NCBI RefSeq assembly: GCF_001984215.1
Contig: NZ_CP019420.1
Coordinates: 5,146,001-5,210,000 of the forward strand
Direction of reading: 5' to 3'
DNA length: 64,000 nucleotides
Origin: Mycobacterium sp. MS1601
Lineage (GTDB): Bacteria; Actinomycetota; Actinomycetes; Mycobacteriales; Mycobacteriaceae
This document shows positions 25,757 through 58,185 of the stretch, piece after piece. Made by a program: the position numbers and the translations under genes. How positions within the stretch are numbered: the stretch's first letter is position 1; every line of letters begins with the position of its first letter. Under the pieces are notes generated by a model. It saw nothing but the letters and a program-made list of their open reading frames with translations. It did not search any database and was not told the origin of the DNA.

Positions 25757-25770
25757 GGGTCATTCGACCC
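25757..25770. promoter_or_regulatory. DosR-like box (perfect palindrome)
   Basis: GGGTCATTCGACCC fits the DosR pattern GGGNCNWWNGNCCC at every defined position and is an exact GGGTC/GACCC inverted repeat. It lies in the divergent region and is nearest to the leftward small gene and OtsB-GH65 gene. Confidence 0.6.
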
Positions 25771-25819
25771 TCGGGGATGCGGACGCTCGCCCCTGGTCGA
25801 CTCGGTCTGCGCGCACGAC

Positions 25820-25855
25820 ATGACCAACGGCCCTCGACCGCTGGACCAATGACCT
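25820..25855. promoter_or_regulatory. Paired DosR-like boxes upstream of USP
   Basis: ATGACCAACGGCCC (25820-25833) and TGGACCAATGACCT (25842-25855) both fit the DosR-type motif and start 22 bp apart. The second ends 67 bp before the USP start at 25923. Confidence 0.6.
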
Positions 25856-25922
25856 CAGACCGTGACGGCGACAACGCCATAGTCTCCAGAGATCCGTCCA
25901 GCAAGCAGCCCGGAGGGCAGCT

Positions 25923-26795
25923 ATGAACGAGTTCATTTCACCGGTTGTGGTCGGTGTCGACGGGTCGGCTGCCTCCCTGGAGGCCGCGCTGTGGGCCGTT
26001 GATGAAGCAATGACCCGGAACACCTGGTTGGTACTCAGCTCGGTGGTGGACCCCCGGGACTCAGACTTGAGTGCCAGGCTGACCTCTGCCCGACGAATGC
26101 TGTGTTCTGCCAAGGCGTTCGTGCAAGATGCCAAGCCACGCGCCATGGTCAGGGCCGAGGTGCTCGTCGATGACGAGGCGCATGCGTGGTTGCAGCACGG
26201 ACGCACGGCGTCTCTGTTGTGTCTGGCGCGTCACGCCGGTTTCGGCAGCGGTGATTCTCCCAGGTGTCCACCGGTCGCTGACGTGGTTCGTTGGGCGGAG
26301 GTTCCGGTCGCCCTGGTGGGGCGCCACCCCGCGCCCCGTCCGGATGATCGGTGGGTGGTGGTGGTCATCGACGCCTCGACACACGCCGGCACGCTGTGGG
26401 CTGCGGCCCTGGCAGAGGCAAGGATGCGCGCTGCCGCCGTCATGATGTTGGCGCCGCCTGGCGTATCGCCTGACGATGTGCAGGAGGAGCTAGAGCGGAG
26501 CGACCCCGGCGACGACTTGGAGGTCTGGGCCATGCCCTGGACTGATGATCTGTCCGGTCTGCTGGCGCAGGCAAACGGTCATGAGCAGGTGGTGGTGATC
26601 AACTCGGCAGCGGGCGCGGTTCTCGACAACTTGCTCGATGCCGGGCACGACAGTGGGTTGCCCGTGGATTGCTCTGTCCTGATGATGCCCTGCGACATCA
26701 CCAGCTGCAGTCGACCCGCTCACCAACACATCGAGGGCCACCCGTTCTACTGCTCGACGCCGGTGGTGCGGGAGCCCGGTGCCGCCGGTAGCTGA
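25923..26795 (+). CDS. Universal stress protein (divergent tandem USP)
   Basis: 290 residues from ATG 25923, with GGAGGGCAG upstream. The first domain opens VVVGVDGSAASLEAALWAVD as in other DosR-regulon USPs. The second (about 138-270) opens WVVVVIDASTHAGTLWAAA. Glycine-rich ATP-binding motifs are largely lost in both halves, so nucleotide binding is doubtful. Two DosR-like boxes precede the gene. It ends 21 bp before the convergent WS/DGAT gene. Confidence 0.82.
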   Translation: MNEFISPVVVGVDGSAASLEAALWAVDEAMTRNTWLVLSSVVDPRDSDLSARLTSARRMLCSAKAFVQDAKPRAMVRAEVLVDDEAHAWLQHGRTASLLCLARHAGFGSGDSPRCPPVADVVRWAEVPVALVGRHPAPRPDDRWVVVVIDASTHAGTLWAAALAEARMRAAAVMMLAPPGVSPDDVQEELERSDPGDDLEVWAMPWTDDLSGLLAQANGHEQVVVINSAAGAVLDNLLDAGHDSGLPVDCSVLMMPCDITSCSRPAHQHIEGHPFYCSTPVVREPGAAGS

Positions 26796-26816
26796 CGGTA
26801 ACGGCCGTGCCCACTG

Positions 26817-28274
26817 TCACCTCGGCGGTCGGCGTCGGATGCTGCGGCGATTGGTCTGCTTGGCGGGTGGGCTGGACTTGGGGAGCAGTTCCACCACAGT
26901 GTTGGCTTGTTCTGCAGAAGTTCGGCTGGCGACCACCAGCTCGTGGACGGCGTCGTGCACCTTGCCGGCGAAGAGATCGAGATCCGGTGTCGAATCGCGG
27001 TCGGCAACGATGCCGAAAACCAGCTCGTCGGCATAGCTGAGTATGGCCACACCCGTCAGCAGGCCGACTCCGATGGGCGGGACGGGCAGCAGGTGTCTGA
27101 CCGTGTGCCCACCGACGCGGTGGCGTTTTCTGGGGCCCGGCACGTTGGTGGCCAGAGCTACCACGCCGCGCTGTGGCAGCGCAGTCAACAGCCGAACAGT
27201 CCAGGCGGACAGCATGAACGGGAAGTATCGGGCCGCCTGCATCAAGAGCGCGGCCGCCTGTGGCTGACCGCTGTGCTTGCCCCCGGCCAGTCGTCGGTGC
27301 ACCACACCGAGCCGTTCCAGCGCATCGTCGATGTCCACGGGCAAGAGGGTGAGCATGGCTGCAACGCGGTTGTCGGTCTGGTCGAACGCATCCGACCGCC
27401 GAATCGAAATGGGTACGAGTGTGCGTACCGGCTCCTTTCCGGGCGCTTCGTGGCGGGCCAACAGAACCGCCCGGAACCCGTGGGCTATGGCGGTCAGAGC
27501 CACGTCGTTGACCGTGACCTCGAATGCCGCGCAGATGCTCTCGACATCGCTCAGGGAGACCCGCACGGCGCGGTACCGGCGCAGAGTGCCGAGCCTGCCG
27601 GTGAGTGAGGTCTGGGCGGGCCGCACTATCTCCGAGGCCATCTGAAGGGCGCCGACACCGGCTCGAGCGAGCCTTCTGGGAAGTACGGATGAAGCCTGCC
27701 AGGCCGCCTGAATCACCTGGCGCGGATCGACACTCAGCTGTATCCGCCCGCGCGCTCCTTGCGGATGAGTCGAGCCATGAATCTGGTCGGCGAATGTCGC
27801 CCCGCCGCCGTCATCGAAGAGCCTGATCAAGGTGTTGGTGGCGGCGATACCGTCGGCGATGCAATGGTGGAGCTTGATCAGTATCGCCCAGCTGTCGTGC
27901 TCCAGGCCCTCGATCACCCAGCACTCCCACAGCGGCCGCTCGCGATCCAGTCGGCGAGCCATGATGTCTGCGGTGAGGTCGAACAGGGCGGTATCATCGC
28001 CCGGCGCGGGAAGCGCCACCCGTCGGACGTGCCGGTCGATTTCGAAGTTGGGGTCCTCCTGCCATTGCGGGGCCTTGAATTTGAGTGGGTGCTGCCGCAG
28101 CACCTGGGTGAAGCGTGGAATCGAAGCCAGTCGCGCTGCCAGAGTCGCCAAGAGGACATCCTGGGGCTCGGGTGGGCCGTCCAGGATGGCGATGCCGCCG
28201 ATGGCCAGACTGATGTGGCGGTCGGCGTCCTCGGCCTCGAGAAATCCCGCCTCGAGAGCTGAGAGATGCTCCAT
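26817..28274 (-). CDS. Wax ester synthase / diacylglycerol acyltransferase (WS/DGAT)
   Basis: 485 residues. The catalytic motif HHCIADG is intact at about 136-142 (HHxxxDG), and the C-terminal family features (TNVPGPRK, a PIGVGLLTGVAILSYAD region) are present. Such enzymes esterify diacylglycerol or fatty alcohol with acyl-CoA to make triacylglycerol or wax ester for storage; Tgs1 is the DosR-regulated homologue family in M. tuberculosis. A DosR-like box lies 59 bp upstream (28333-28346). Carbon storage during hypoxia is the probable role. Confidence 0.9.
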   Translation of the reverse strand: MEHLSALEAGFLEAEDADRHISLAIGGIAILDGPPEPQDVLLATLAARLASIPRFTQVLRQHPLKFKAPQWQEDPNFEIDRHVRRVALPAPGDDTALFDLTADIMARRLDRERPLWECWVIEGLEHDSWAILIKLHHCIADGIAATNTLIRLFDDGGGATFADQIHGSTHPQGARGRIQLSVDPRQVIQAAWQASSVLPRRLARAGVGALQMASEIVRPAQTSLTGRLGTLRRYRAVRVSLSDVESICAAFEVTVNDVALTAIAHGFRAVLLARHEAPGKEPVRTLVPISIRRSDAFDQTDNRVAAMLTLLPVDIDDALERLGVVHRRLAGGKHSGQPQAAALLMQAARYFPFMLSAWTVRLLTALPQRGVVALATNVPGPRKRHRVGGHTVRHLLPVPPIGVGLLTGVAILSYADELVFGIVADRDSTPDLDLFAGKVHDAVHELVVASRTSAEQANTVVELLPKSSPPAKQTNRRSIRRRPPR

Positions 28275-28332
28275 ATCAACACTATCGAGGCGACTCCATC
28301 AGCGTAGGAAGTTCGAAAGGTACCTCTTTCAA

Positions 28333-28346
28333 GTGACAAGCGACCC
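28333..28346. promoter_or_regulatory. DosR-like box between WS/DGAT and flavodoxin genes
   Basis: GTGACAAGCGACCC fits the DosR-type motif. It lies in the 148-bp divergent region, so it could serve both the leftward acyltransferase and the rightward flavodoxin-like gene. Confidence 0.5.
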
Positions 28347-28422
28347 TAGTTGGGACGGTGAGCGGACCGGAAGCCTGGTCTTCAGGAAGGCAGCTTCGAC
28401 CGATCCGAGAAGAGGTGCTGCG

Positions 28423-28959
28423 ATGCGTGTACTCGTTGCCTACGCCTCCCGCCGCGGCGGGACGGCAGGGCTGGCTGCCATGATCGGAGATGCGTTCGGG
28501 CGCAACGGATGGGAGGTCGACGTTCGTCGCGCCGGTGACGTTCATGACCTGGCTGAGTTCGATGTCGTGGTGGTGGCTTCCGCGCTGTACATGGGCCGGT
28601 GGCTGGGGGAGGCCCGTCGGTTTCTGCGACGGCATGCCGACGAGTTGCGGACGCGGCACGTATGGCTGGTCAGCAGTGGGCCCCTGACGCGGGATGTTGA
28701 GATCGACACTCCGCCACCGCGTGCGGTGAAACGGTTGGCGGTGAAGGTGAACGCCTACGGTCACGCGATGTTCGGAGGGCGGCTGCTCCGCGACGCACGC
28801 GGATTTCCGGCCCGCGTAATGGCACGGTCGAGTTCGGGGGACTATCGCGATCCTGCCCGGGTGCAGGCGTGGGTCTCGGCGGCAGTGGCCAGCGTGCGGG
28901 CTGTCAGTGCCCGTGAGCGCCAGTCGCACGCGCAGCCGGAACACAACACTTCGCTCTGA
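28423..28959 (+). CDS. Flavodoxin-domain protein (HemG-like)
   Basis: 178 residues from ATG 28423, with AGAGGT upstream. It begins MRVLVAYASRRGGTAGLA, the FMN phosphate-binding loop of flavodoxins, followed by FDVVVVASALYMGRWL and a WLVSSGPL strand. This pattern is close to menaquinone-dependent protoporphyrinogen oxidase (HemG) and related flavodoxin-like proteins common in actinobacteria. An FMN-dependent electron-transfer role is likely; protoporphyrinogen as substrate is unproven. It is divergent from WS/DGAT with a shared DosR-like box. Confidence 0.8.
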   Translation: MRVLVAYASRRGGTAGLAAMIGDAFGRNGWEVDVRRAGDVHDLAEFDVVVVASALYMGRWLGEARRFLRRHADELRTRHVWLVSSGPLTRDVEIDTPPPRAVKRLAVKVNAYGHAMFGGRLLRDARGFPARVMARSSSGDYRDPARVQAWVSAAVASVRAVSARERQSHAQPEHNTSL

Positions 28960-29067: not shown

Positions 29068-30014
29068 TCACGAGAGTTCCACGGGGTCCGGCACGACACG
29101 GAACAGACGTTCGACATCCTCTCGACGGCAGACCTCGGTGCCCGGCGTCAACAGCATGGCTGCTCCCGCAGCGACGCCGAATCTCATGGATTTCCTCAGC
29201 GACCACCCTCGCTCCAGGCTGGTCACCACGGCGGCCACCATCGCGTCTCCTGCGCCCACCCCGCTCACACCGGAGACAGGTACGGCGGGGAACAGCGCGG
29301 CGGTCGTGTCGGTGATCAACAGGGCACCATGGGCGCCGCACGACACCACGACGATACGAGCCACACCGTGACTGATGAGCTCCCGGCCCGCGGCTACCCG
29401 CGCCGTGTCGTCCGACAACTCCCTGCCAAGCCGGTCGCGGAGTTCGCGCACACTGGTCTTGAGGAGCCATACGTCGGAGGTGATCTGGTGCAGGCCTCGT
29501 CCCGATGTGTCCAGCACCATCAATGTATCTGTTTTGCAGCATATCTCGGCGACACGCTGGTACAGATCCGGCGACGACCCAGGGGGAGGCTGCCGCTGCA
29601 GACCACGAAGCGTGCGCCTTGCGCGGCTTCGTCCAGAGCCTTTAAACATCGGTTCTCATCCTCGGCGGTCACCGTAGGACCGGGCAGGACGAATCGGAAC
29701 TGACGCCCCGTGTTGCGTTCGTTGACGGTGAAGCTCTCCCTGGTCGGCCCGGCTATCCGCACTTCTCGGATCGGGACCGAGGCGCGGTGCATGAGATCGA
29801 TAATGGTTTGACCGGTGGGCCCACCCACAGGAAACACCGCTGTTGCCACAGCGCCGAGAGCCTGGGCTGTGCGGGCCACGTTGATACCGCCACCACCGGG
29901 ATCGTAACGCGCAGCACTGCAACGGAGTTTCTCTGTGGGATCGACGGTGTCGGTGGCAGTGGTGATGTCCAGAGCTGGATTCATCGTCAGAGTGACGATG
30001 GATGGCGGCATCAC
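29068..30014 (-). pseudogene. pfkB2: PfkB-family (6-/1-)phosphofructokinase, interrupted by a one-base frameshift
   Basis: The leftward gene starts at ATG 30014. The first frame holds the ribokinase-fold N-terminus (TLTMNPALDITTATD, DPGGGGINVARTAQALG, FVVCSGSLP). The second frame holds the rest (DLYQRVAEIC to VSGVSGVGAGDAMVAAVV, with the catalytic Asp in GAGD). The break is at a run of five C on the coding strand (29582-29586); one more C gives SGSLPPGSSPDLYQ and a full-length kinase of about 315 residues. M. tuberculosis PfkB2 (Rv2029c) is the DosR-regulon homologue and is also next to Rv2030c. The start overlaps the Rv2030c-like stop by 4 bp, so the two are coupled. The break may be a sequencing error. 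Confidence 0.8.
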
Positions 30015-32917: not shown

Positions 32918-32953
32918 GGGGCAGAAGTCCTCGCCACACAGGTCGATGGTCCG
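32918..32953 (-). promoter_or_regulatory. Paired DosR-like boxes upstream of hspX
   Basis: Read on the minus strand: AGGACTTCTGCCCC (32931-32918) and CGGACCATCGACCT (32953-32940). They are offset by exactly 22 bp and lie just upstream of hspX. The hspX promoter of M. tuberculosis is also controlled by several DosR sites. Confidence 0.6.
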
Positions 32954-33180: not shown

Positions 33181-33858
33181 ATGCCTTCCAACACCGTCAA
33201 GACCGGTGCCGCACTGGGATTTCTCTACGTCGCACGGCGGTACTACCGCAACTGGGGAACCACCAAAGAGGAGTGCTCGGAGACACTGCCAGGGGACGAT
33301 CTGGTGGAGGCTCCGGCCGTCCAGACCACCGAAGGAATCTGGATCGACGCACCCGCGGCCGACGTCTGGCCCTGGCTGATCCAGATGGGCCAGGACCGCG
33401 GTGGCCTCTACAGCTACGAGAAGCTCGAAAATCTTGCGGGTCTGCAGTACCACAACACCGATGTCGTACATCAGGAGTGGCAACATCTGCTGCCTGGGGA
33501 TGTCGTTCGGCTGGCACCCCAGCGGTGGCTGGGACTTCGGGACGGCCTCGTGCTCGAAGTCGCCAAGGTGGTGGAAGGGCAGTCGATAGTGCTGCGCGCG
33601 ACCCCTGCACGTCAGCACTGGAACGCGGTGTGGTCGTTTCACGTGCTCCCGCGATGGGATGACCGGTGCAGGCTGCTGATTAGGTCTCGAACGGGATTAC
33701 GCCACCCTGGTGAAGTACTCGCCACCGAAATCGCCGGGCCGGCCTTGGCGATCATCACCCGGGGGATGCTGTTGGGAATCAAACGTCGCGTAGAGAATCT
33801 GGCCCAAGCCGACGCGGCAGCGGCGGCCGCCAGCGGGGATGGCCAGCGGGTGCGCTAG
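33181..33858 (+). CDS. SRPBCC-fold protein
   Basis: 225 residues from ATG 33181, with GGGAAG upstream. The sequence has the pattern of a START/SRPBCC hydrophobic-ligand-binding family: IWIDAPAADVWPWLIQMGQD, GGLYSYEKLENLAG, HNTDVVHQEWQHLLPGD, then a beta-rich core. Ligand and function are unknown. A clear paralogue lies at 34996-35634, and both are preceded by DosR-like boxes. The C-terminal Ala-rich tail overlaps the convergent flavin-oxidase-like gene by 80 bp. Confidence 0.8.
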   Translation: MPSNTVKTGAALGFLYVARRYYRNWGTTKEECSETLPGDDLVEAPAVQTTEGIWIDAPAADVWPWLIQMGQDRGGLYSYEKLENLAGLQYHNTDVVHQEWQHLLPGDVVRLAPQRWLGLRDGLVLEVAKVVEGQSIVLRATPARQHWNAVWSFHVLPRWDDRCRLLIRSRTGLRHPGEVLATEIAGPALAIITRGMLLGIKRRVENLAQADAAAAAASGDGQRVR

Positions 33859-34291
33859 AACTCTCATCTCTGGGCGCGCTTGCCGGGCGGTCGAACTGGA
33901 ACCGGCGACCGCTGACCCGCAGCGGACGAATGCGGACGAAATGTTGTTTGTCCGCGTCCACCCATGGCCGCAGCCCGGCCTGCTCTGCAACGTCGATCTC
34001 GTCGTCGGTGGACAGAATCCTTGCGAACCCCTTGACGATGACGCTCCAGCCTTGAGTGTGCTCGTGGCCGTCCGCCTCGAAGGTGACGTTGTGATTGATG
34101 GCGGTGCTGACCAGCTTCGTTCCTCCGGCGGTCCGGAACAACAGAGTGCGGTCCTGAACGGCGAAGTTGACCGGGAACACTTCGGGTTCGCCGTCAACAC
34201 TGGTGATGAGGCGGCCTAGCGAGACGCTGGACAACAGATCCCAGCAGGTGCTCTCCGGTAGGACGGTGGCGAGTTGGGTTTGGTTGGACAT
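33779..34291 (-). CDS. Pyridoxamine 5'-phosphate oxidase-fold flavin-binding protein
   Basis: 170 residues from ATG 34291. The first 130 residues follow the PPOX/FMN-binding split-barrel family (LLSSVSLGRLITSVDGEPEV, FPVNFAVQDRTLLFRTAGGTKL, HTQGWSVIVKGFARIL, VRIRPLRVSGRRFQF). Members bind FMN, F420 or heme. The natural end is expected soon after FQF; instead a 40-residue Pro/Arg-rich tail runs 80 bp into the convergent SRPBCC gene, so a small frameshift near 33895 is possible. A DosR-like box lies 37 bp upstream. Confidence 0.75.
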   Translation of the reverse strand: MSNQTQLATVLPESTCWDLLSSVSLGRLITSVDGEPEVFPVNFAVQDRTLLFRTAGGTKLVSTAINHNVTFEADGHEHTQGWSVIVKGFARILSTDDEIDVAEQAGLRPWVDADKQHFVRIRPLRVSGRRFQFDRPASAPRDESSSAPAGHPRWRPPLPRRLGPDSLRDV

Positions 34292-34605
34292 GGCCGTGAC
34301 GCTACGCAGTTTTTCACGTCGGGAACGTGGCCGAAAGGCCCTACCTCATGGAGTATTTGGGCGCGGCCCAGGTTCTTTGAGTGTCAACACACCGCCGAAA
34401 CCGGAGGTCGACCGCGTCCGAGTTCCTCGGCAACTGCACTTGCCGCCCATCGGCTCCCACGTACCCAATGGGTTGGTGATCGCATCTCTGAGTCCGCACG
34501 TCAAGACTGTCTGCACAGCTATCAGTGATGCCCATCCTGGGCCGGAGGTTTACGCGGGTGAGCGGATGCGCTTTGGTCCCGTCCAATAATGCGCGGGTGG
34601 GTTGC
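34292..34605. promoter_or_regulatory. Gap with DosR-like box at 34328-34341
   Basis: The 314-bp gap between two leftward genes contains TGGCCGAAAGGCCC (34328-34341); its reverse complement GGGCCTTTCGGCCA fits the DosR-type motif except the last base. It lies close to the start of the flavin-oxidase-like gene. Nothing else was recognised up to the SpoIIAA-like gene. Confidence 0.5.
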
Positions 34606-35634: not shown

Positions 35635-35753
35635 TCCCGCACGATCACATCCCGAGTTGTGCTGCATCAGGGTCGAAAGGCCGCACACCGGAGGTCTTGT
35701 GGGGTCTAGCCGCGGGACTCTGCGATCACACCCGGGTGCGTCACCGGGCGTGT

Positions 35754-35790
35754 GGGACCTAAGACACCGGCTGACTGGGACCTTCGCCGA
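35754..35790. promoter_or_regulatory. Paired DosR-like boxes upstream of ppsA
   Basis: GGGACCTAAGACAC (35754-35767) and GGGACCTTCGCCGA (35777-35790) start 23 bp apart. The second ends 56 bp before the ppsA start, and both also lie upstream of the divergent SRPBCC-SpoIIAA pair. Confidence 0.55.
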
Positions 35791-35846
35791 CGGGGTATGG
35801 TCCTGCGCCGCTACGCGCACCGGCCGGGGCCGACGACAGTGAGTGC

Positions 35847-40737: not shown

Positions 40738-41134
40738 GCGTTCAGGGGGGACTGCCCACCGGGTAGCGATGGTCTCGTTGGTCATCTGCTCATGCTGAGG
40801 CGCCGTGCCCGCGGTCACCCAGGGTCCAGTGAACCTGGAAGCCAACGGCTTAGGGCACGTTCGAGCCGCCGGTTGCCGGGTGGTGTCCCGATACCGGTTC
40901 GCACAGTACCCATCGGGGTATCGCTTGGCCGACGCCGGGCGGGTGACCACCGGCACCCGCCAGACGGGACCAACGACCCTGACCGCGCCGGCGCTCGCCC
41001 CATAACGTCTTACTCATCAAAACCGGCAGTGACGCCAGGCAGGTGTTGTCGTGGTAGACCCACGACGACGGTGGTGTTGAGAGTTTTCGTCACCACTTGC
41101 GAGTCGTCGTGCCATCCCGAGTGATCGGAGACAG
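40738..41134. promoter_or_regulatory. 397-bp gap with paired DosR-like boxes (40943-40979)
   Basis: GTGACCACCGGCAC (40943-40956) and GGGACCAACGACCC (40966-40979) start 23 bp apart and lie about 155 bp upstream of the next USP. The rest of the gap shows no gene. The distance from box to start codon is longer than elsewhere in the window, so a 5' leader of about 100 nt is expected. Confidence 0.55.
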
Positions 41135-42013
41135 ATGATGACAAGAGCAGACACTCGCTACGGCATTCTCGTCGGAGTCGACGGTTCTGAAGAGTCCGAT
41201 GCCGCCGTCCGCTGGGCCGCCACGGAGGCTGCGAAACTCGGTGTCGCGATCACTTTGATGCATGCAGTCGAACCGATCGTGATCAGTTGGCCCATGGCTT
41301 CATTTCCCGAGACGATCGCCGAAGCCCAACGTGAAGCTGCAGCGACCGTGATCGGCCGGGCCACCGAGGTTCTCTCGGCTACCGGTGAGAACGTGGAGGT
41401 CCGCACCGACATGCAATTCTCCGGCGCGGTTCCGGCCCTGGCCGATGCGTCGAAGGATGCTCTGATGGTCGTCGTCGGCAGCCGGGGGATGGGCGCCATC
41501 GGGCGAGCGGTGCTCGGATCGGTCAGCGCCGGGTTGGTGCACTATGGGTTCGGTCCCGTTGTGGTGGTGCACGTCCAGGACGGGCACTTGCCAGACGAAG
41601 CAGCCCCGATAGTCCTGGGCATTGACGGATCGCCGGCCTCCGAAGCGGCCACCGAGATTGCCTTTGCCGAAGCGGACCGACGCAGGGCGGAGTTGGTGGC
41701 TGTACATGTCTGGAGCGATGTCGGAGTGCTGCCGGTGATCGGTTTGGACTGGCGGGAGTTCGAACAGCGCGGGGAAGAGGTGCTGGGTGAGCGGCTGGCG
41801 GGCTGGCAAGAGCAGTACCCCGACGTCACGGTCAGGAGGCGGGTCCTGTGCGACAAGCCCGCTCACTGGCTGCTCGAGGAGGGGCGAGACGCGCAGCTGA
41901 TCGTCGTCGGCAGCCATGGCAGGGGAGGCTTCTCCGGAATGCTGCTGGGATCTGTGAGTTCAGCGGTGGCGCATTCTGCGCACGTTCCGGTGATGGTGGT
42001 GCGACCTCGATGA
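41135..42013 (+). CDS. Universal stress protein, tandem USP domains
   Basis: 292 residues (ATG 41135 or 41138, after GGAGACAG). Two complete USP domains, each opening with a GVDGS/GIDGS strand and each with the ATP-binding loop: VVGSRGMGAIGRAVLGSVSA in the first and VVGSHGRGGFSGMLLGSVSS in the second. This is the classic Rv1996/Rv2005c-type architecture, and ATP binding is expected. It overlaps the zinc-ribbon gene by 4 bp. The USP at 44898 is a close paralogue. Confidence 0.9.
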   Translation: MMTRADTRYGILVGVDGSEESDAAVRWAATEAAKLGVAITLMHAVEPIVISWPMASFPETIAEAQREAAATVIGRATEVLSATGENVEVRTDMQFSGAVPALADASKDALMVVVGSRGMGAIGRAVLGSVSAGLVHYGFGPVVVVHVQDGHLPDEAAPIVLGIDGSPASEAATEIAFAEADRRRAELVAVHVWSDVGVLPVIGLDWREFEQRGEEVLGERLAGWQEQYPDVTVRRRVLCDKPAHWLLEEGRDAQLIVVGSHGRGGFSGMLLGSVSSAVAHSAHVPVMVVRPR

Positions 42014-43639: not shown

Positions 43640-44103
43640 ACCGCCATCGGATCGAGCCAGGATCGGGGAGACCGATGTAGTGAGTCACCACCGGATGGGC
43701 ATCCAGCGATGAGTGGCTGCACTTCATCTCCGTGACGGTGCGAGGGTCGTCACCCCCAGTAGTTGGCCCCGCTTCGAACGCGCCGATGGCGACGTCTGCA
43801 TCTCCGCTTTCGGTCACGTTTCGATGCCCAATCATCGAGATGGCAGGGATGTGCGGTGAAGAATCACAAGTACCGCTCGCGCTCGCTGAGTTCCCCGGTC
43901 AGCCGCGTCACCGCCGTACGATCTCGGAGCGGGAGATGCCATACCTCGTTCCAGGTGACCTTTGGCGCCACTGCGTACGGCGATCGTGCAGGGCCAATGC
44001 CCCGCACAGCAGTGACTTTGGCCCCTCCGCCCGAGCGGGCGGTCTCATTCATCATCGACGTGTAGACAGACGAACGTCGCTCTCGCTCCTCGGAGGGGCT
44101 GCC
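43640..44103. other. 464-bp gap before the Rv1733c-like gene
   Basis: Apart from the two DosR-like boxes at its right end, no gene is supported. Open frames here have neither ribosome-binding sites nor recognisable protein features. Position 44092 onward (GGAGGGG) is the ribosome-binding site of the next gene. Confidence 0.35.
43990..44025 (+). promoter_or_regulatory. Paired DosR-like boxes upstream of Rv1733c-like gene
   Basis: AGGGCCAATGCCCC (43990-44003) and GTGACTTTGGCCCC (44012-44025) start 22 bp apart. The second is among the best matches to the DosR consensus in the window and ends 78 bp before the start codon. Confidence 0.65.
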
Positions 44104-44697
44104 ATGGACACCGTGCATTTCACCGTCAAGAACACGTTGCTGCTGCGAGCTTGCGGTCGTAATCCGCTGGTGCGGAACAGTGATCGCGTGGAAGCGATCT
44201 CCACCCTATTCCTGGTGGCCATCCTGGTTCTGTTTGTGCCTGTTGCCGGCGCGATCGGCACCGCCGTACACGACAGCCAGACGACATATCGCACCGATGC
44301 CCTGGCGACACGGCAGGAGAGGTCTGCGTTGGTCACGGACAACAGCGTCAATGTGACAGCTCCTTCCGACACGGGATCGTTGACGCCGGTGCGTTGGTCG
44401 GTGGGAGACGAGATCCACGAAGACGTGGTGCGGTCCAAAGAGTGGTATCAGCGCGGCGACGAGATGACGATCTGGGTGGACCACCGCGGCGTCCGCGTGC
44501 CGGCGCCGCCCACTCCGGCGGACGCCGCTCTGGCTGCGGTGATGGCGGCTGTCGCCACGTGGCTGGGCGTCGCAGCGGCAGCAGCGCTGGGACGCGCGAT
44601 GATGCAACGTCGCCTGGACCACAAGCGATACACGGAGTGGGACAACGAGCTTCACCAACTCGCCGACGGCGACGGGAAGCACCCGCGGCACACATGA
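44104..44697 (+). CDS. Rv1733c-family membrane protein
   Basis: 197 residues from ATG 44104, with GGAGGGG upstream. The family start (HFTVKNTLLLRACGRNPLVR, then NSDRVEA) is followed by one transmembrane helix (about 33-55), an extracytoplasmic loop of about 100 residues, a second helix (about 140-165) and a basic tail. This is the architecture of Rv1733c, a DosR-regulon membrane protein and latency antigen of unknown function. The first 30 residues are repeated in a degraded copy at 55071. Confidence 0.85.
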   Translation: MDTVHFTVKNTLLLRACGRNPLVRNSDRVEAISTLFLVAILVLFVPVAGAIGTAVHDSQTTYRTDALATRQERSALVTDNSVNVTAPSDTGSLTPVRWSVGDEIHEDVVRSKEWYQRGDEMTIWVDHRGVRVPAPPTPADAALAAVMAAVATWLGVAAAAALGRAMMQRRLDHKRYTEWDNELHQLADGDGKHPRHT

Positions 44698-44792: not shown

Positions 44793-44829
44793 GGGACCAG
44801 TGTCACGCATCAGACAGGACCAACGCCTC
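44793..44829 (+). promoter_or_regulatory. Paired DosR-like boxes upstream of frameshifted USP
   Basis: GGGACCAGTGTCAC (44793-44806) and AGGACCAACGCCTC (44816-44829) start 23 bp apart; the second ends 68 bp before the USP start. Both are imperfect at one or two positions. Confidence 0.45.
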
Positions 44830-44897
44830 TGCCCGGGTCAGCTGCGCCGCAATAACGTCAGTACATCGACAGGTGAAGTGAGCCGGAGGCTACAGAG

Positions 44898-45768
44898 ATG
44901 ACCAGAGAAACTCGCTACGGCATTCTCGTCGGTGTCGACGGCTCCGAGGAGTCCGACGCAGCCGTTTGTTGGGCGGCCGCCGAAGCTACCCGTCTCGACC
45001 TGCCCATCACCTTGATGCATGCGGTGGTTCCGATCGTCATGAGTTGGCCGGTGGCTCCTCTTCCCCCGACACGCTGATCGACGCTGAACGCGAGGCGGCG
45101 GAGCAGGTCATCGCGCGGGCGCGCGCCGTCGTGGCAGCCGCCGACGAGACACTGAAAGTGCGTTCGGAAGTGGTGTTCGCGGCGGCCGTGCCGGTGTTGG
45201 CCGATGCGTCCAAGGACGCATCGATGGTGGTGGTCGGAAGCCGCGGGATGGGAGCGTTCGGGCGGGCCGTGCTGGGTTCGGTCAGTTCGGGACTGGTGCA
45301 TCTCGGGCACGGCCCGATTGCGGTGGTCCACGCGCCGGATGGTCGCGTGCCGGATCCGGCCGCTCCGGTCATCCTCGGCGTCGACGGGTCACCCGCCTCC
45401 GAGGCGGCTATCCCGCTGGCCTTCGCTGAAGCCGACCGGCGCAGAACAGAACTGGTGGCGGTGCATTCGTGGAGCGATGGGGGTTGCTGCCCATGCTCGG
45501 CCTCGATTGGCGAGAGTACGAGCAGCGCGGCGAGGAGTTGTTGGGGGAAAGACTCGCCGGTTGGCAGGAGCAGTTCCCCGATGTCTCGGTTCGGCGCCGT
45601 GTGGTGCGCGACAAGCCCGCGCGGTGGCTGATGGAGGAGGCGCAATACGCGCAACTCATCGTTGTGGGAAGCCATGGCCGCGGCGGCTTCTCCGGGATGT
45701 TGCTGGGTTCGGTCAGTTCGGCGGTGGTGCATTCGGCACAGATCCCGGTGATCGTGGTCCGTCCGTGA
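44898..45768 (+). pseudogene. Universal stress protein with two one-base frameshifts
   Basis: ATG 44898 follows GGAGG. The protein is a close paralogue of the USP at 41135. The first frame stops after SWPVAPLPPTR. A second frame continues DTLIDAEREAAEQVIARARA, and a third carries GLLPMLGLDWREYEQRGEEL to the end VVGSHGRGGFSGMLLGSVSS. The breaks are at a C run (45063-45067) and a G run (45479-45483); one extra base in each restores a tandem USP of about 290 residues. Every domain is otherwise intact, so a consensus error is at least as likely as decay. Confidence 0.75.
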
Positions 45769-46053: not shown

Positions 46054-46209
46054 TTACATGGGGTCCGGCTGCTCGGTTGTCTGCTGCTCGGGCTCAGGCC
46101 GGGTCTCGCTGGGGGCCCGCCATCCCGGTGGAGGCGCGCCGTAGGGGGAGTGACGGTGATGCAGATACACGCGTGGTCGATCATCACCGTGGTCACGGGA
46201 TGGATTCAT
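46054..46209 (-). CDS. Small Pro/His-rich protein of 51 residues
   Basis: ATG 46209 follows AAGGAACG. The 51 residues (MNPSRDHGDDRPRVYLHHRH, then a Pro/Glu/Gln-rich tail ending TEQPDPM) show no family and no membrane segment. A DosR-like box at 46312-46325 lies 103 bp upstream. The 285-bp stretch to its left (45769-46053) contains no convincing gene. Modest confidence because of size and lack of homologues known to me. Confidence 0.4.
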   Translation of the reverse strand: MNPSRDHGDDRPRVYLHHRHSPYGAPPPGWRAPSETRPEPEQQTTEQPDPM

Positions 46210-46311
46210 CACGTTCCTTGTCTCAATGGGTGAGCGGGGCTCCGTTCGGGCCCGCTTTGCCTGCCACACAGGCGATATCTCTGAAGTTACGCCGTGGGGA
46301 GCCCGAGCGCT

Positions 46312-46325
46312 GGAGGCTTTGGTCC
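46312..46325 (+). promoter_or_regulatory. DosR-like box near small gene and USP
   Basis: GAGGCTTTGGTCCC fits the DosR-type core with one mismatch at position 2. It lies between the leftward 51-codon gene and the end of the leftward USP gene, so the former would be its target. Confidence 0.35.
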
Positions 46326-46388
46326 CGAAGTTGGTTACTGCAGGCCGGCCGGGCACCCGGCGAGCGCCGCGATCACCTCTTCTGGAAC

Positions 46389-48366: not shown

Positions 48367-49854
48367 TCAGAAAGCCGCAGAGCAGATGCTCTGAGCGTGG
48401 GTCACTGATTCGGCCACTGGGCGTCCCGTATCGACAACGTGCGCACCAGGCCAAGGTTGGTTGGTGATCTGCTCGGCGACACGAGCTGTCGCATCGGAGT
48501 CTGTCGGCCCGCGTGCGGTGAGTCTCGACTGGGCCTCGGAAAGGTTGGTCGTGCAACACAGTTGAACCAGTGCCGCGGATGCGCGTTGGGCGAGGTCGAA
48601 GGCTCTGCGCCGCTGCCGGGCATCGCGCCAGGTCCCGTCGAGGATCACAGATCTCCCCAGCCCCAGAGCTTGGCCTGCACGCTCGAGGACTTCGGCGTAG
48701 ACGGCCGAGACATTGGCGGGATCATAGAGTCCCCGATCCACATCGCCCACTTCGCCGGTGATGCGGCCCCGGTGTTGGAGTTCTCGCCGCACCAGGTCGG
48801 TCGAGATCACCTGGGCGCCCAGCACATCGCGTAATGCGGAGGCCAAGGTGGACTTGCCGGTGCCGGGACCACCACCGATGAGCACGAGTCTCACGGTGCC
48901 CGATCGAAGATGCCTCTGAGCGACATCGATATGCCGATACACGTCGGCGCGGGCAGCGCGCTGACCCTGGGTGACTTTGATGCAGTCCACTTTCGCGCGG
49001 ACCACTGCTCGGTAGGCGATGTAGAAGTGGGCCAGTGTTGTGGGGGCCGGGTCGGCGGCTGCGCGGCGGTAGCTGTCGAGAAACAGCGCAGCCAACTCGG
49101 GCCGGCCGAGGAACTCCAGGTCCATCGCCAGAAACGCGGCGTCGTCGATGCCGTCGACATAACGCAACTGGTCATCGAACTCCAGGCAGTCCAGCGGTAC
49201 CGGACCGTCCTCGGTGCAGAAGATGTCGTCGGTCGTCAGGTCGCCGTGTCCGTCGATCACCCGATGCTCCGCAACACGAGATGCGAACAGGGGGGCCCGT
49301 CCGGCCAGGAACCTCATGGCGAGTCGCCGCAGTTCGCAGATCTGCTCTGCCGTGACGAGTTCTCCGGCAAAGCGGTCCAGGGCTGACAGGTTCTCCTGCC
49401 AGCGTCCGGCGATGCCCGTGACCGACGCACAGTTGTCGATCACCGGTGAACGCGCCGCGCCGGCGTGGAACCGAGCCAGTGTTCGTGCCAGCGCGGTGAG
49501 ATGACGTTCGGTGGGCTCGCCGCGTTCCAGCATGGGGCGCAACCGAATATCCTCGGAGTAGCGTTTCATCACCACCACCGGTTCCGGGGCTGCGCCGTCG
49601 GGAGTGTGAAAGTGCCCTACGCCGAGGTAGCTGGTGGGGGCGAGCCGACGGTTGAGGTCCACCTCTCGGGCGCACGCCCGCTCACGTGTCTCCCGCGTGC
49701 GGAAATCGAGGAAGTCGGTGACCACTGCCTTCTTCGACTTGTAGGCGCGATCGCCCACGAGAACGACGATGCCGGTGTGCGTCTCGCGCACCTCGACGTC
49801 GGCCGACCCGGTTGCCGCGCTGACTGTTGCGCTGACGACTGGCGGCCTGGTCAT
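48367..49854 (-). CDS. APH-like kinase / P-loop ATPase fusion (Rv2004c-like)
   Basis: 495 residues from ATG 49854, close to the 498 of Rv2004c. The N-terminal two thirds are an aminoglycoside-phosphotransferase-like kinase domain (VDLNRRLAPTSYLGV; HGDLTTDDIF with the catalytic-loop Asp). From about residue 330 an AAA/kinase P-loop domain follows (LVLIGGGPGTGKSTLA, then RRELQHRG). Such fusions are DosR-regulon members of unknown substrate. No ribosome-binding site is visible, so the mRNA may have a very short leader. A DosR-like box lies 58 bp upstream on the minus strand. Confidence 0.85.
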   Translation of the reverse strand: MTRPPVVSATVSAATGSADVEVRETHTGIVVLVGDRAYKSKKAVVTDFLDFRTRETRERACAREVDLNRRLAPTSYLGVGHFHTPDGAAPEPVVVMKRYSEDIRLRPMLERGEPTERHLTALARTLARFHAGAARSPVIDNCASVTGIAGRWQENLSALDRFAGELVTAEQICELRRLAMRFLAGRAPLFASRVAEHRVIDGHGDLTTDDIFCTEDGPVPLDCLEFDDQLRYVDGIDDAAFLAMDLEFLGRPELAALFLDSYRRAAADPAPTTLAHFYIAYRAVVRAKVDCIKVTQGQRAARADVYRHIDVAQRHLRSGTVRLVLIGGGPGTGKSTLASALRDVLGAQVISTDLVRRELQHRGRITGEVGDVDRGLYDPANVSAVYAEVLERAGQALGLGRSVILDGTWRDARQRRRAFDLAQRASAALVQLCCTTNLSEAQSRLTARGPTDSDATARVAEQITNQPWPGAHVVDTGRPVAESVTHAQSICSAAF

Positions 49855-49911
49855 AAAGAGAATCCTGGTGCTGGCGCCCCCGGCTTCGCTGCGGCCGAAC
49901 GTCGTGCCGTA

Positions 49912-49925
49912 CGGCCAAAAGGTCC
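49912..49925 (-). promoter_or_regulatory. DosR-like box upstream of the Rv2004c-like gene
   Basis: CGGCCAAAAGGTCC on the plus strand matches most of the DosR-type motif with one or two deviations. Its distance to the leftward start suits activation of a transcript with a short leader. Confidence 0.4.
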
Positions 49926-49962
49926 TGCCCCGCACGGGTAGAAAGTCATCAATGTGGATCGA

Positions 49963-49976
49963 GTGACCAAAGACTC
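49963..49976 (+). promoter_or_regulatory. DosR-like box upstream of the USP-dosR-dosS operon
   Basis: GTGACCAAAGACTC lies 82 bp before the USP start at 50058. Control of this operon by DosR would be positive autoregulation, as known for Rv3134c-dosR-dosS in M. tuberculosis. Confidence 0.5.
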
Positions 49977-50057
49977 TTTCCGCCTGTTGGCACTCGTGCC
50001 GATGCTGCTTGACACAACACGGCTACGCCGAGCAACAACGTCAGAGAGGAGGCCGCC

Positions 50058-50918
50058 GTGAAGGATCATTCGATACCTTCACCCGCCGTTGTGGTGGGCA
50101 TCGACGGTTCACGCTCGGCGTTGGCGGCCGCGCTGTGGGCGGTGGACGAGGCGCTGGATCGTGACGTTCCGCTGCGGCTGCTGTATGCCGTCGCGCCTCG
50201 CCCGGTCCCGATGAACGCCGATGTGGCTGCGCGCGACCTGGCTACCGCGGAGATCGCGATCCGCGAGGCGTTCATGGCCGTCGAGTCTCTCGACAAGCCG
50301 GTCAAGATCGAGGTGGAAATCGTTCAGGATGATCCGATTCACGCTCTGTTGAATGCATCTCGATCGGCAACGATGCTGTGCGTCGGAGATCTCGGCATTG
50401 GGCGATCCACCGGACGGCATTACGGTTCTGTCGCCGCAGCGGTGTCGCGATCGACGCACTGCCCCGTGGCCGTCATCCGGCGAGACGACGCCGATCACCG
50501 CGGATGCGTGATTGCCGAAGTTGACGAATCCACGTCCTTCGCGGCAGTTTTGGACTTGGCCGTGAGCGAGGCGCGGATGCGGAAGTGCCCGTTGCGTGTT
50601 CTCACCGGGTCGCAACCCCGCTTCACCGACGTCGCCGATGCTCCAGATGCGGCCGAAGCCACCAGAGACGCCCAGACCCGACTCGACAAGCAACTCGACT
50701 GGTGGCGGCGACGCTACCCGGACCTCGACGCCGTGGCGGTCGCCACCCGCGGTTCCACATTGAACTACCTGGCTCAGCAAGACGATTCAATTCAATTGCT
50801 GGTAGTCGGGCCGGGGAATGGCCACCGACGGCCGGAAGCTGCGAAAGCCGATGCGCACAGTGCTTTGCGAGATGGCCGATGTTCGGTTCTCATCTCTGGT
50901 CGCCATGGCGCGCTGTGA
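50058..50918 (+). CDS. Universal stress protein, first gene of the dosR operon
   Basis: 286 residues from GTG 50058, with GAGGAGG upstream. The first USP domain opens [20 protein letters not shown]; the second (about 150 onward) is divergent ([20 protein letters not shown]). Rv3134c, also a USP, precedes dosR in M. tuberculosis in the same way, so this is its positional equivalent. The dosR start is 62 bp downstream. ATP-binding glycines are incomplete. Confidence 0.85.
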
Positions 50919-50980: not shown

Positions 50981-53402
<2,422 letters not shown>

Positions 53403-54921: not shown

Positions 54922-54960
54922 GCCGTGCTCTGAGGTCGGACCCTTCGCAGATCCATCGGC

Positions 54961-54996
54961 GTGCCAAAGCCTCTGCACAGCTGTGACTTTGGGCCC
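54961..54996 (+). promoter_or_regulatory. Paired DosR-like boxes upstream of the Rv1733c remnant and USP
   Basis: GTGCCAAAGCCTCT (54961-54974) and GTGACTTTGGGCCC (54983-54996) start 22 bp apart. The pair has the same spacing and the same second box core as the pair before the intact Rv1733c-like gene (43990-44025). Confidence 0.6.
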
Positions 54997-55370: not shown

Positions 55371-56249
55371 ATGGCTTCGAACACTGCCGGAAGCGAGATC
55401 GTGGTCGGGTATGACGGCACGCGAGCATCCCGGTCGGCTCTCGAGTGGGCCACGCGTGAAGCGGGCCTGTGCAACCGCAAGATCACCGTTGTCCACGTGA
55501 TCCTGACACCCGAGATGGGCGAGTGGATCGATACGGCCATGTCGGAGCGGTACAACGCCGCGCGGCAGGAGCGCGCGAACGCCCTGCTGCAGGAGGCAAC
55601 TGCACTGGTATCCAGGACGGCGAGCACCGATCGTCCGGTCTCGGTCGGCACTCGGGTAGCAACCGGCTCTGTGCTGGCGACACTTGTCGAGACATCCAAG
55701 GACGCCTACATGATTGTCGTCGGCCGTCGTGGTCTGGGCGCGTTGGCTGGGGTAGTCCTGGGCTCGGTTAGTCGAGGCCTGGTCGAACACGCACACTGCC
55801 CGGTGGTCGTGGTGCGCAACGAAGAGCAGCCGCCACCCGAAGCGCCGGTGGTGCTGGGAGTGGACGGTTCGCCTACATCGCAGGCTGCCACCGCCTTGGC
55901 CTTCGACCAGGCCTCCCGGCGAGGTGTTGATCTGGTTGCCGTGCACACCTGCAGCGACGACAACGTAGACATCGTCGATGTCGGTTGGGCAGATCTGGAG
56001 AAGCTGGGAGCTGAGGTGGTTTCGGAGCAGCTGGCAGGCTGGGTCGACCGATATCCCGATGTGTCGGTTCGTCGAATCGTGGCGCGAAACAGCCCTGCGC
56101 GATGGATTGTCGAACAAGCGGATTCGGGTCAGCTCGTTGTGGTGGGAAGCCATGGTCGTGGAGGGTTCGCCGGCATGTTGCTCGGATCGGTGAGCAACGC
56201 GGTGGTGCAGGCCTCCCGAGTGCCCGTGATTGTCGTCCGGCAATGCTGA
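55371..56249 (+). CDS. Universal stress protein, tandem USP domains
   Basis: 292 residues from ATG 55371, which has its own AAAGG. Both domains are complete: IVVGYDGTRASRSALEWATR with VVGRRGLGALAGVVLGSVSR, and VVLGVDGSPTSQAATALAFD with VVGSHGRGGFAGMLLGSVSN, so both should bind ATP. It is the closest in type to the USP at 41135. The stop overlaps the next small gene by 7 bp. Confidence 0.9.
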   Translation: MASNTAGSEIVVGYDGTRASRSALEWATREAGLCNRKITVVHVILTPEMGEWIDTAMSERYNAARQERANALLQEATALVSRTASTDRPVSVGTRVATGSVLATLVETSKDAYMIVVGRRGLGALAGVVLGSVSRGLVEHAHCPVVVVRNEEQPPPEAPVVLGVDGSPTSQAATALAFDQASRRGVDLVAVHTCSDDNVDIVDVGWADLEKLGAEVVSEQLAGWVDRYPDVSVRRIVARNSPARWIVEQADSGQLVVVGSHGRGGFAGMLLGSVSNAVVQASRVPVIVVRQC

Positions 56250-56503
56250 TCGAGAACGTCCCCGTTCAGCCGGGCGGTTCGTCGACGGTGGTGTTCGACA
56301 ATGAGATCGACGAGATCATCACCGCGGTCTGCGCCAAATTCCCCGCATGTTCCCGCGCTGAAGTCGAGTCGGTGGTCGTGCAGGCCTACCGGCATCTGGC
56401 GGATCGGGCCACCGTGACCGCTCACTTGATTCCACTGACGTTGAACCGCAGCGTGCGGGTGCTGCGCAGAGCGCACCCGTCGCCTCGCTGCACTGATCGC
56501 TGA
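56243..56503 (+). CDS. Small three-helix-bundle dimerisation-type protein
   Basis: 86 residues from ATG 56243, overlapping the USP stop. The core (DNEIDEIITAVCAKFPACSR, AEVESVVVQAYRHLADRATV, HLIPLTLNRSVRVLR) matches the short actinobacterial proteins annotated as three-helix bundle dimerisation domain. It probably dimerises with itself or a partner. It is coupled to the USP and 3 bp upstream of the SulP gene. Confidence 0.7.
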   Translation: MLIENVPVQPGGSSTVVFDNEIDEIITAVCAKFPACSRAEVESVVVQAYRHLADRATVTAHLIPLTLNRSVRVLRRAHPSPRCTDR

Positions 56504-56506
56504 GCG

Positions 56507-58156
56507 ATGCACGTCCGGCCGCAATCACTCTTCCCGGGCTTGATGAATTCCGCGCCCTACCAACGCCGCTGGTTACGTGGGGATCTGATTGCCGGCACGA
56601 GTGTGGCCGCGTATCTGATACCTCAAGCGCTCGCATACGCCACCCTGGCGGGATTGAGTCCCGTTGCGGGGTTGTGGGCCGCGTTGCCTCCGCTGCTGAT
56701 CTATGCCGCGCTGGGTTCGTCGAGGCAACTCTCAGTCGGCCCGGAGTCCACCACGGCGCTCATGACGGCTGCAGTGGTTGCCCCGCTGGCGGCCGGGGAT
56801 GACGTCCGTTACGCCAGCTGTGCTGCGGTGCTGGCTGTGCTCGTCGGCGCGCTGTGCCTCGGCGCAGCGTTGCTCAGGCTCGGTTTCCTGGCCAACCTCC
56901 TGTCGGAACCCGTGCTCGTGGGGTATCTGACTGGTATCGCTGTGATGATGGTGACCAGTCAGCTGGGCCGTCTCACCGGTTCGCAATCACAGGGATTGCA
57001 CTGGCCCACAGTGGCTCTCAGTGCCACATCTCTAGCGGTCGTGTTTGCCCTCGAGCGCTGGGCCCCGCGTGTTCCGGGTCCGCTGACGGCAGTCGTGGTA
57101 TCCATACTTCTGGTGGGCGTCCTGTCGTTGACGAGTAGCGGGATTTCGGTGGTCGGTGAACTGCCCATGGAGTGGCCGACAGTGACCTTTCCGGTCCTGG
57201 AACGCCAGGACATCGAGGCTCTGGTATTGCCCGCGGTAGGTATCACCATTGTCGCCTTCTCGGACAACGTGCTGACTGCTCGGGCATTCGCCGCCAAGAC
57301 CGGAGACGAGATCGATACCAACGCCGAGTTGCGCGCACTCGGCGCCTGCAACGTCATTGTCGGTCTGACACAAGGATTCCCGGTGAGTTCCAGCGGCAGC
57401 CGGACCGCGCTCGGCGTCGCCTCCGGGTCCGCGACACAACTTTACTCCCTGGTGATGCTCGCGGTTGTGGCCGTGGCAGTGACCATCGGCGGCCAGTTCA
57501 TCGCGATGATTCCTTCAGCGGCACTTGGCGCGATCGTCGTCTTCGCCGCGATCAAGCTCATCGATATCGACCAGTTTCGCAGGCTGGCCCGATTTCGCCG
57601 CAGTGAACTCATCCTTGCAGTGGCCACCACCGTCAGCGTCGCGTCGCTGGGAGTTCTCCAGGGCGTCCTCGTCGCGGTGGCGTTGACCGTACTCGATCTG
57701 TTGCGTCGACTGGCCCGTGCACACGACAGTGTGCAGGGCTTTGTGCCTGGGCTGGCCGGAATGCACGACATCGACGACTACCCCGATGCCCGGCAAATCG
57801 CGGGGCTAATGGTGTATCGCTACGACGCTCCGCTGTGCTTTGCGAATGCCGAGAACTTCAGGAAGCGGGCCTTGGCGGCCCTGAACACAGGTCCTGAACC
57901 GGTGCGATGGTTTGTGCTGAATGCCGAGGCCAATGTCGATGTCGATTTGACCGCGTTGGAGGCGCTGGATCGTGTTCGGGCCGAATGCGAACGCCGCGGC
58001 GTCGTCTTCGCGATGGCCCGGGTCAAACAGGACCTGCGGGACGCCCTCACGGCTGCCGGGCTGCTCGACGTGATCGGCGAGGACCGCCTTTTCATGACAC
58101 TGCCGACTGCGGTCGCGGCATACGAACGCGCACGAGACGGGAACGCTCCGCAGTGA
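56507..58156 (+). CDS. SulP-family anion transporter with STAS domain
   Basis: 549 residues from ATG 56507. The first helices contain RWLRGDLIAGTSVAAYLIPQ and YATLAGLSPVAGLWAALPPL, typical of SulP; 10-12 transmembrane segments precede a C-terminal STAS domain (about 430-545; YRYDAPLCFANAENFRKRAL). Several M. tuberculosis SulP proteins share this layout. The gene appears to be the last of the operon USP/three-helix/SulP driven by the boxes at 54961-54996, so anion transport may be part of the hypoxic response. The substrate is unknown. Confidence 0.88.
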   Translation: MHVRPQSLFPGLMNSAPYQRRWLRGDLIAGTSVAAYLIPQALAYATLAGLSPVAGLWAALPPLLIYAALGSSRQLSVGPESTTALMTAAVVAPLAAGDDVRYASCAAVLAVLVGALCLGAALLRLGFLANLLSEPVLVGYLTGIAVMMVTSQLGRLTGSQSQGLHWPTVALSATSLAVVFALERWAPRVPGPLTAVVVSILLVGVLSLTSSGISVVGELPMEWPTVTFPVLERQDIEALVLPAVGITIVAFSDNVLTARAFAAKTGDEIDTNAELRALGACNVIVGLTQGFPVSSSGSRTALGVASGSATQLYSLVMLAVVAVAVTIGGQFIAMIPSAALGAIVVFAAIKLIDIDQFRRLARFRRSELILAVATTVSVASLGVLQGVLVAVALTVLDLLRRLARAHDSVQGFVPGLAGMHDIDDYPDARQIAGLMVYRYDAPLCFANAENFRKRALAALNTGPEPVRWFVLNAEANVDVDLTALEALDRVRAECERRGVVFAMARVKQDLRDALTAAGLLDVIGEDRLFMTLPTAVAAYERARDGNAPQ

Positions 58157-58171
58157 CCGGGGCGGACCAGG

Positions 58172-58185
58172 GTGACCTTCGGCCC
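58172..58185 (+). promoter_or_regulatory. DosR-like box upstream of USP
   Basis: GTGACCTTCGGCCC closely matches the DosR consensus and ends 80 bp before the USP start at 58266. Confidence 0.6.

Follow-up and report, generated by a model that had tools for sequence, protein, structure and literature searches.

Tandem DosR-type boxes spaced 21 to 23 bp in a DosR regulon island of Mycobacterium sp. MS1601

The DosR island and its regulator

The stretch analyzed here (the window) comprises 64,000 nucleotides of Mycobacterium sp. MS1601, corresponding to positions 5,146,001 to 5,210,000 of contig 1 in a genome of 6.83 Mb, and contains a gene block that is a DosR regulon island carrying its own usp-dosR-dosS operon. 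The subject of this study is the DosR-type boxes ahead of the genes of this block, many of which occur in pairs; positions are those of the window. Scans with Pfam and NCBIfam identified as dormancy and stress genes several universal stress proteins (Usp), an HSP20 (hspX-like) protein, and a wax ester synthase/diacylglycerol acyltransferase (WS/DGAT), and furthermore a phosphoenolpyruvate (PEP)-synthase-like enzyme, a P-type ATPase, an Rv2632c-like protein, a nitroreductase, and a sulfate permease. HSP20, several Usp, WS/DGAT, the nitroreductase, and the Rv2632c-like protein represent content typical of a DosR/DevR regulon. Genes were called by script, which makes start codons and intergenic borders approximate, and 30 bases of coding DNA were kept on each side of the intergenic regions.

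The operon lies on the + strand and consists of a universal stress protein gene (50091-50918; Pfam Usp), the gene of the DosR (DevR) response regulator (50981-51631; Response_reg and GerE), and that of a DosS-type sensor kinase (51717-53402; GAF, GAF, HisKA_3, and HATPase in Pfam, with the start taken from the script). As expected for such a regulon, the kinase gene adjoins dosR and a usp gene precedes it; the called gene before dosR also best matched the window usp 50091 in 57 of 79 related loci (strand not compared). The gene before devRS of Mycobacterium tuberculosis, Rv3134c, encodes a universal stress protein. The best Protein Data Bank (PDB) match of the island DosR was M. tuberculosis DevR (3c3w), with 366 bits over residues 1 to 213, and D54 (the phosphorylation site), T82, K179, K182, and N183 are all unchanged. 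K179 and N183 we take to be DNA-contact residues. T82 is described in passages of PMC4973870 as required for cooperative binding in M. tuberculosis, and K182, in the title of a cited paper, as required for DNA binding.

Paired boxes in the island

The original prediction described a dense array of DosR-like 14-mers in the block, 14 of which formed seven pairs at a fixed offset of 22 or 23 bp. Thirteen of these 14 boxes were within 0 to 3 mismatches of GGGNCNWWNGNCCC, one of them exact, and the box at 54961 had 4 mismatches. Because fitting to hand-picked sites was to be avoided, an off-window matrix was trained: expectation-maximisation was run on the intergenic regions of 80 named DosR loci together with those of 29 PEP-synthase loci from the genus, with the window excluded. 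Among these 80, the best named DosR loci, identity did not exceed 89%; most are from Mycolicibacterium and Mycobacterium, and the record of the window itself may be absent from them. Training begun from the published consensus converged on gGGGACCAANGgCCCTg; among 40 random starts, one arrived at a motif of this form (12.9 bits), and none of the remaining 14 among the 15 best-ranked exceeded 6.5 bits. The exact palindrome GGGACNWWNGTCCC had no match genome-wide and was too strict for this species, and the counting of consensus mismatches was dropped in favor of the matrix.

Thirteen of the 14 boxes scored above the 99th percentile (2.1 bits) of the intergenic background of this genome (56,595 positions), the exception being 54961 with -5.6 bits. 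The intergenic DNA of the block (6,659 bases) contained 16 sites scoring 12 bits or more, compared with none in 60,555 intergenic bases from 18 other 20-kb stretches of the genome; at a threshold of at least 10 bits, there were 20 and 7 sites, respectively. In coding DNA, the site density was nearly alike in block and background. Both the dense occurrence of the boxes and scores exceeding the background were thus borne out. Since the island encodes a DevR-matching DosR with the key residues and a DosS-type kinase, the assignment of the boxes as DosR-type is supported.

Six of the seven predicted pairs proved sound. Three rightward ones precede usp genes or an open reading frame (ORF): 25820/25842 (25820-25855, 22 bp, 14.7 and 9.6 bits) before the usp gene at 25923, with TAGTCT at +31 from the box centre; 43990/44012 (43990-44025, 22 bp, 4.9 and 12.9 bits) before the ORF at 44104, with CATCAT at +31; and 40943/40966 (23 bp, 9.4 and 16.3 bits) before the usp gene at 41135, which with its -10 element TAACGT (41003-41008; whole promoter 40943-41008) makes a composite promoter more complete than any other in the block. 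The same -10 sequence (44853-44858) accompanies the rightward pair 44793/44816 (44793-44858, 23 bp, 2.9 and 13.8 bits) before a broken-frame usp gene (44898-45631, +), in which the Usp domain extends over two reading frames, indicating a decayed gene or a sequencing error. The leftward pair 32918/32940 (32918-32953, 22 bp, 15.3 and 4.9 bits) ahead of the hspX-like gene (HSP20 domain) and the rightward pair 35754/35777 (35754-35790, 23 bp, 12.6 and 6.3 bits) ahead of the PEP-synthase-like gene (Pfam) are without TANNNT at +30 or +31. The seventh and weakest pair, which precedes the usp gene at 55371, fits better in register 54960 (2.3 bits) than in 54961, so that its spacing is 23 bp instead of 22 bp (54960/54983, 54960-54996, +, second box 14.4 bits, CACCAT at +30).

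Four pairs were found beyond those predicted. Pair 25757/25780 (25757-25793, 23 bp, 15.0 and 7.5 bits) points leftward, with CAGTAT at the -10 place (+30), and 40822/40845 (40822-40858, 23 bp) is weaker, with 8.2 and 6.1 bits. Pair 58172/58193 (58172-58206, +, 21 bp, 12.1 and 6.1 bits) precedes the usp gene at 58353 (Usp domain). Pair 34328/34351 (23 bp, 10.6 and 4.6 bits), together with a -10 element TAGCGT at 34299-34304, forms a leftward putative promoter (34299-34364) ahead of a pyridoxamine-phosphate-oxidase-like ORF (33779-34291, -; Pfam). The predicted -10 element ends about 8 bp from the start codon of this ORF, which would give a leaderless or near-leaderless transcript.

Between a leftward operon (start at 49854) and the rightward usp-dosR-dosS operon lie boxes 49912 (alternative register 49913), 49936, and 49963 (49912-49976; 6.9, 13.5, and 16.6 bits). 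Box 49936 has a partner of 3.5 bits at 23 bp (49913) or of 6.9 bits at 24 bp (49912). Box 49963, the strongest ahead of the dosR operon, is located 27 bp from 49936. A single strong box, 46313 (14.6 bits), with the -10 element TAACTT (46284-46289, +30; whole promoter 46284-46326, -), is directed leftward into a region (46054-46289) between two converging usp genes in which no gene was recognised. This region is a candidate for a hypoxia-induced small RNA or a 51-residue protein; among 100 genomes searched, the 51-residue ORF below the promoter had matches only in its own and, weakly, in one other.

For the spacing within the block, the 20 sites scoring 10 bits or more were considered, one of which (25849) overlaps its neighbour 25842. 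Thirteen of them had a partner of at least 2 bits at 21 to 23 bp, compared with a mean of 1.5 and a maximum of 4 partnered sites in 3-bp distance bins starting outside 18 to 24 bp, and with the off-window matrix the 21- to 23-bp bin ranked first among 67 distance bins. The block contained 9, 6, 6, 3, and 2 pairs at this distance at thresholds of 4, 5, 6, 7, and 8 bits, compared with 1.35, 0.99, 0.68, 0.36, and 0.27 pairs when positions were randomised within their own regions (4,000 draws). No random draw matched the observed number at 4, 5, and 6 bits, and p was 0.006 at 7 bits and 0.029 at 8 bits, related sequences being treated as independent in all p values given here. The excess shrinks at strict thresholds because one partner is mostly weak. 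The predicted enrichment over random placement was therefore present (9 versus 1.35 pairs at 4 bits), and the narrow spacing is real, with a range of 21 to 23 bp rather than a fixed 22 or 23 bp. A first profile calculated with a harsh matrix had given only a weak window peak at -23 (2.8 standard deviations) and strong ones for the named dosR loci at -22 and -21 (6.2 and 5.4 standard deviations); a softer pseudocount was adopted for later scans.

Spacing, -10 element, and polarity in relatives

The 109 training loci also served as the set of relatives. Their 1,014 sites of at least 5 bits formed 74, 85, and 28 pairs at 21, 22, and 23 bp but only 2 at 20 bp, 3 at 24 bp, and a mean of 5.6 at distances of 30 to 80 bp, whereas the same intergenic DNA read backwards as a control gave 574 sites and 3, 6, and 8 pairs at 21, 22, and 23 bp. 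A site of at least 10 bits was present in 79 and a 21- to 23-bp pair in 56 of the 80 named DosR loci. Partners were found at 30 of 43 proximal sites in slow growers (18 named loci chosen from species names; spacings of 21/22/23 bp in 13/17/0 cases), at 37 of 92 in the other named loci (16/15/6 cases), and at 2 of 9 in the PEP-synthase loci. These results confirm that, in the window as in the relatives, the 21- to 23-bp arrangement is real and far exceeds chance expectation.

The account of the pairs in the original prediction left out an element that in the relatives is the strongest evidence tying them to promoters, namely a -10 element at +30 or +31. It emerged from 241 sites with a single possible target gene, oriented by transcription and thinned to 197 (<75% identity; 8 from the window). 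Among the 150 sites without a downstream box, TANNNT started at +30 in 40 and at +31 in 27 (67 of 150; 65 of 144 without the window sites), whereas its count was 0 at each of positions +26 to +29 and +32 to +35 and 0.13 per position elsewhere. For distal boxes, TANNNT was found at +51 to +53 in 28 of 47. The dinucleotide TA alone occurred at +30 in 29 and at +31 in 24 of 71 partnered sites, compared with 1.06 per position. The -10 element at +30 or +31 was present in 52 of 71 promoters with a partner and in 15 of 77 without; two more promoters, with their best partner at 24 bp, were without such a -10 element. A coupling between pair spacing (21, 22, or 23 bp) and -10 distance (30 or 31 bp) was not seen in a tabulation made without statistical test. 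A proximal box overlapping the -35 region was thus found in the relatives; in the window, the strict arrangement was present at six sites only (25842, 40966, 43039, and 44816 rightward, 34328 and 46313 leftward).

The 67 composite promoters, two of them in the window, were then characterized for polarity. The proximal box was oriented with transcription in 64 of 67, as was the distal box in 46 of the 52 promoters where it was detected. Polarity is a tendency and not a law, because the two boxes have equal polarity in only 72 of all 112 non-redundant pairs, with or without a -10 element. These data bear on the unlikely explanation that the pairs belong to two promoters that overlap, or to divergent genes, and do not reflect cooperativity. 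Divergent regions indeed exist in the island (25679-25922, 35635-35846, and 49855-50090), but the pairs remain among promoters with a single possible target, the -10 element keeps a single position with respect to each box (+30/31 and +51 to +53), and both boxes are mostly oriented with transcription.

In 58 of the 67 composite promoters, the best site 21 to 23 bp upstream of the proximal box scored at least 0 bits, compared with 0, 1, 2, 2, 2, 7, and 8 of 67 at seven other distance triplets treated alike. The distal core contained G-5 in 62, C-3 in 63, G+3 in 56, and C+5 in 57 of 67, and all four in 44, compared with 0 to 7 at the seven other triplets. At +6/+7, the positions facing the proximal box, the distal box had C in 46 of 134 cells versus 118 of 134 in the proximal box and 280 of 804 in the controls, whereas its outer GG was mostly kept (92 of 134 versus 107 of 134, controls 206 of 804). 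Selection with a symmetrised matrix yielded the same picture. The degeneration of +6/+7 to the control level could be taken to mean that the second box is the site of another regulator or a relic of promoter duplication without DosR contact; we regard this as a still less probable explanation, given the complete core at 44 of 67 distal sites and a 21- to 23-bp range that would be unexpected for relics. That the pairs are chance near-matches to a loose consensus in GC-rich DNA, chosen by eye, is scarcely credible: several partner boxes are weak (2.3 to 4.9 bits) and the strict box pattern occurs genome-wide at background level (28 matches versus 37 in the backwards control), but six of the 28 lie in the block, all intergenic and five with a partner of at least 2 bits at 21 to 23 bp, compared with 3 of the 22 elsewhere (15 of which are within called genes), and the off-window matrix with its first-ranked bin, the relatives, and their -10 distance contradict this explanation.

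The genome contains a second dosR-dosS pair at 1467106-1469359 of contig 1 (17106-19359 of record L132), with a DosR 74% identical to that of the island and, ahead of the pair, a single box of 15.9 bits, one of the 22 strict-pattern matches outside the island, with the -10 element TACTGT at +31. Cross-regulation between the two DosR systems is possible, and several related records have two dosR loci as well (L015/L019, L016/L035, and L026/L075). In the window but outside the block, a box of 16.6 bits (harsh matrix) occupies intergenic positions 18907-18920 ahead of the gene at 19008. A PfkB-type kinase (29068-30014, -) is split across two overlapping ORFs in different frames, pointing to a frameshift, decay, or a sequencing error, and immediately right of the block lies the potassium-transport gene kdpA (59519-61192, +). 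An Rfam scan of 25000-59500 gave no match above the gathering score.

Interpretation and comparison with known systems

We interpret the pairs as composite DosR promoters of the island, in which a proximal box over the -35 region and an adjacent second box would hold two DosR dimers side by side, and estimate the probability of this reading at about 90%. It builds on the observed identity, density, spacing, and polarity of the boxes, their distance to the -10 element (mainly in relatives), and their conservation in relatives. Several observations weigh against it. Seven of the 20 strong block sites, including 49963, are without a partner of at least 2 bits at 21 to 23 bp. The relatives are not independent, and their 74/85/28 pairs are unthinned; a set non-redundant at 80%, window included, comprised 41, 43, and 28 pairs at 21, 22, and 23 bp. 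For 44 sites in PEP-synthase loci of relatives (harsh matrix), the top offset was 28 bp (3.7 standard deviations), followed by 21 bp (3.0), and the best partner in these promoters was at 28 bp in eight, at 22 bp in four, and at 23 bp in four cases (13 loci), so that the 28-bp promoters perhaps form a second class of DosR promoter. In the window, among site-orientations scoring 5 bits or more, TANNNT was present at +30/31 in 6 of 202 within the block versus 2 of 122 outside, for which reason the -10 rule is invisible from the window alone; at 10 bits or more, the numbers were 5 of 50 and 0 of 6. The hspX, PEP-synthase, and dosR operon promoters are without TANNNT at +30/31. In view of the non-redundant counts, a genome-specific shift to 23 bp (3 of 5 versus 27 of 177 pairs, Fisher p 0.03) is not claimed.

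A NarL-type response regulator binds one box as a dimer. By analogy with DevR of M. tuberculosis, DosS would phosphorylate DosR, a first dimer would occupy the stronger box, and a second dimer would be recruited through protein contacts to the neighbouring box, the upstream one, 21 to 23 bp away centre to centre, being mostly the weaker. With its box centred 30 to 31 bp upstream of the TANNNT -10 element, the proximal dimer would cover the -35 region, the expected position of sigma factor region 4, and might stand in for the -35 contact and assist the SigA polymerase. Below 21 bp the two footprints of about 20 bp would collide, and above 23 bp the contact would be lost. Two turns of the helix, as originally proposed together with binding to one DNA face, describe the spacing roughly and not strictly: as two turns correspond to 21 bp at 10.5 bp per turn, the second box is rotated by about 34 degrees at a spacing of 22 bp and by about 69 degrees at 23 bp. 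The spacing is far above chance, and the sequence rule agrees closely with the cooperative binding reported for M. tuberculosis DevR in passages of PMC3029386; for the island protein, the proposed cooperative binding of DosR dimers would hold by analogy.

A further generalization is possible but, in our view, rather doubtful, namely that one polar rule applies across mycobacterial DosR promoters: distal box, 21 to 23 bp, proximal box, 30 to 31 bp, TANNNT. The box would be directional (central AAC, with transcription in 64 of 67), and the distal box would have kept its outer half and lost the conserved CC of its inner half, as if dimer-dimer contact had replaced base reading. The analysis as a whole displays the tandem arrangement in many mycobacteria besides the tuberculosis bacterium. 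It also refines a known principle into an exact promoter template, with which mycobacterial genomes can be searched and start sites predicted, and which points out positions at which the cooperation of two DosR dimers can be tested.

Tandem boxes have been described as a hallmark of all M. tuberculosis DevR promoters. The spacing of the M. tuberculosis boxes is reportedly 21 bp (-42.5/-63.5). The promoters of Rv3134c-devRS, tgs1-Rv3131, narK2-Rv1738, and hspX resemble those of the island in the regulator, which is the same by sequence, and in their strong and weak adjacent boxes. Passages of PMC3029386 describe a high-affinity box and an adjacent low-affinity box (P and S), strong cooperativity that depends on parts of DevR beyond the DNA-binding domain, and a proximal box overlapping the -35 element; P and S boxes with cooperative binding and the proximal one over -35 also appear in section 6 of PMC5360333. 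According to passages of PMC3029386, PMC4973870, PMC7018068, and PMC5360333, the proximal box over -35 and a devRS operon with a preceding gene are common to M. tuberculosis and the island. A difference concerns the -10 element, which here is TANNNT, often TAnCGT, whereas the putative -10 regions of seven selected DosR-regulated genes of M. tuberculosis in Table 2 of PMC5360333 depart from TANNNT.

In Mycobacterium smegmatis, the consensus GGGACTTNNGNCCCT is the same kind of box, whereas pair spacing is not described in the passages of PMC6448022 concerned. M. abscessus and M. avium likewise have DosRS regulons with predicted DosR motifs ahead of the targets (passages of PMC10034137 and PMC11876180), but the word "spacing" is absent from the main text of both papers. 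OsdR of Streptomyces coelicolor is a functional DevR orthologue with the box AGGGCCGATCGGCCCT and a usp-rich region near osdR, according to passages of PMC5069765; it differs in a more palindromic box, and "tandem" and "spacing" are absent from the main text of that paper. Titles, abstract openings, and passages found in literature searches aimed at spacing did not state it. Possibly new are the distances across the genus, the polarity of the boxes, and the relaxation at the inner edge of the distal box. The finding itself represents the tandem-box design already known for the DevR regulon, present here in a further mycobacterium.

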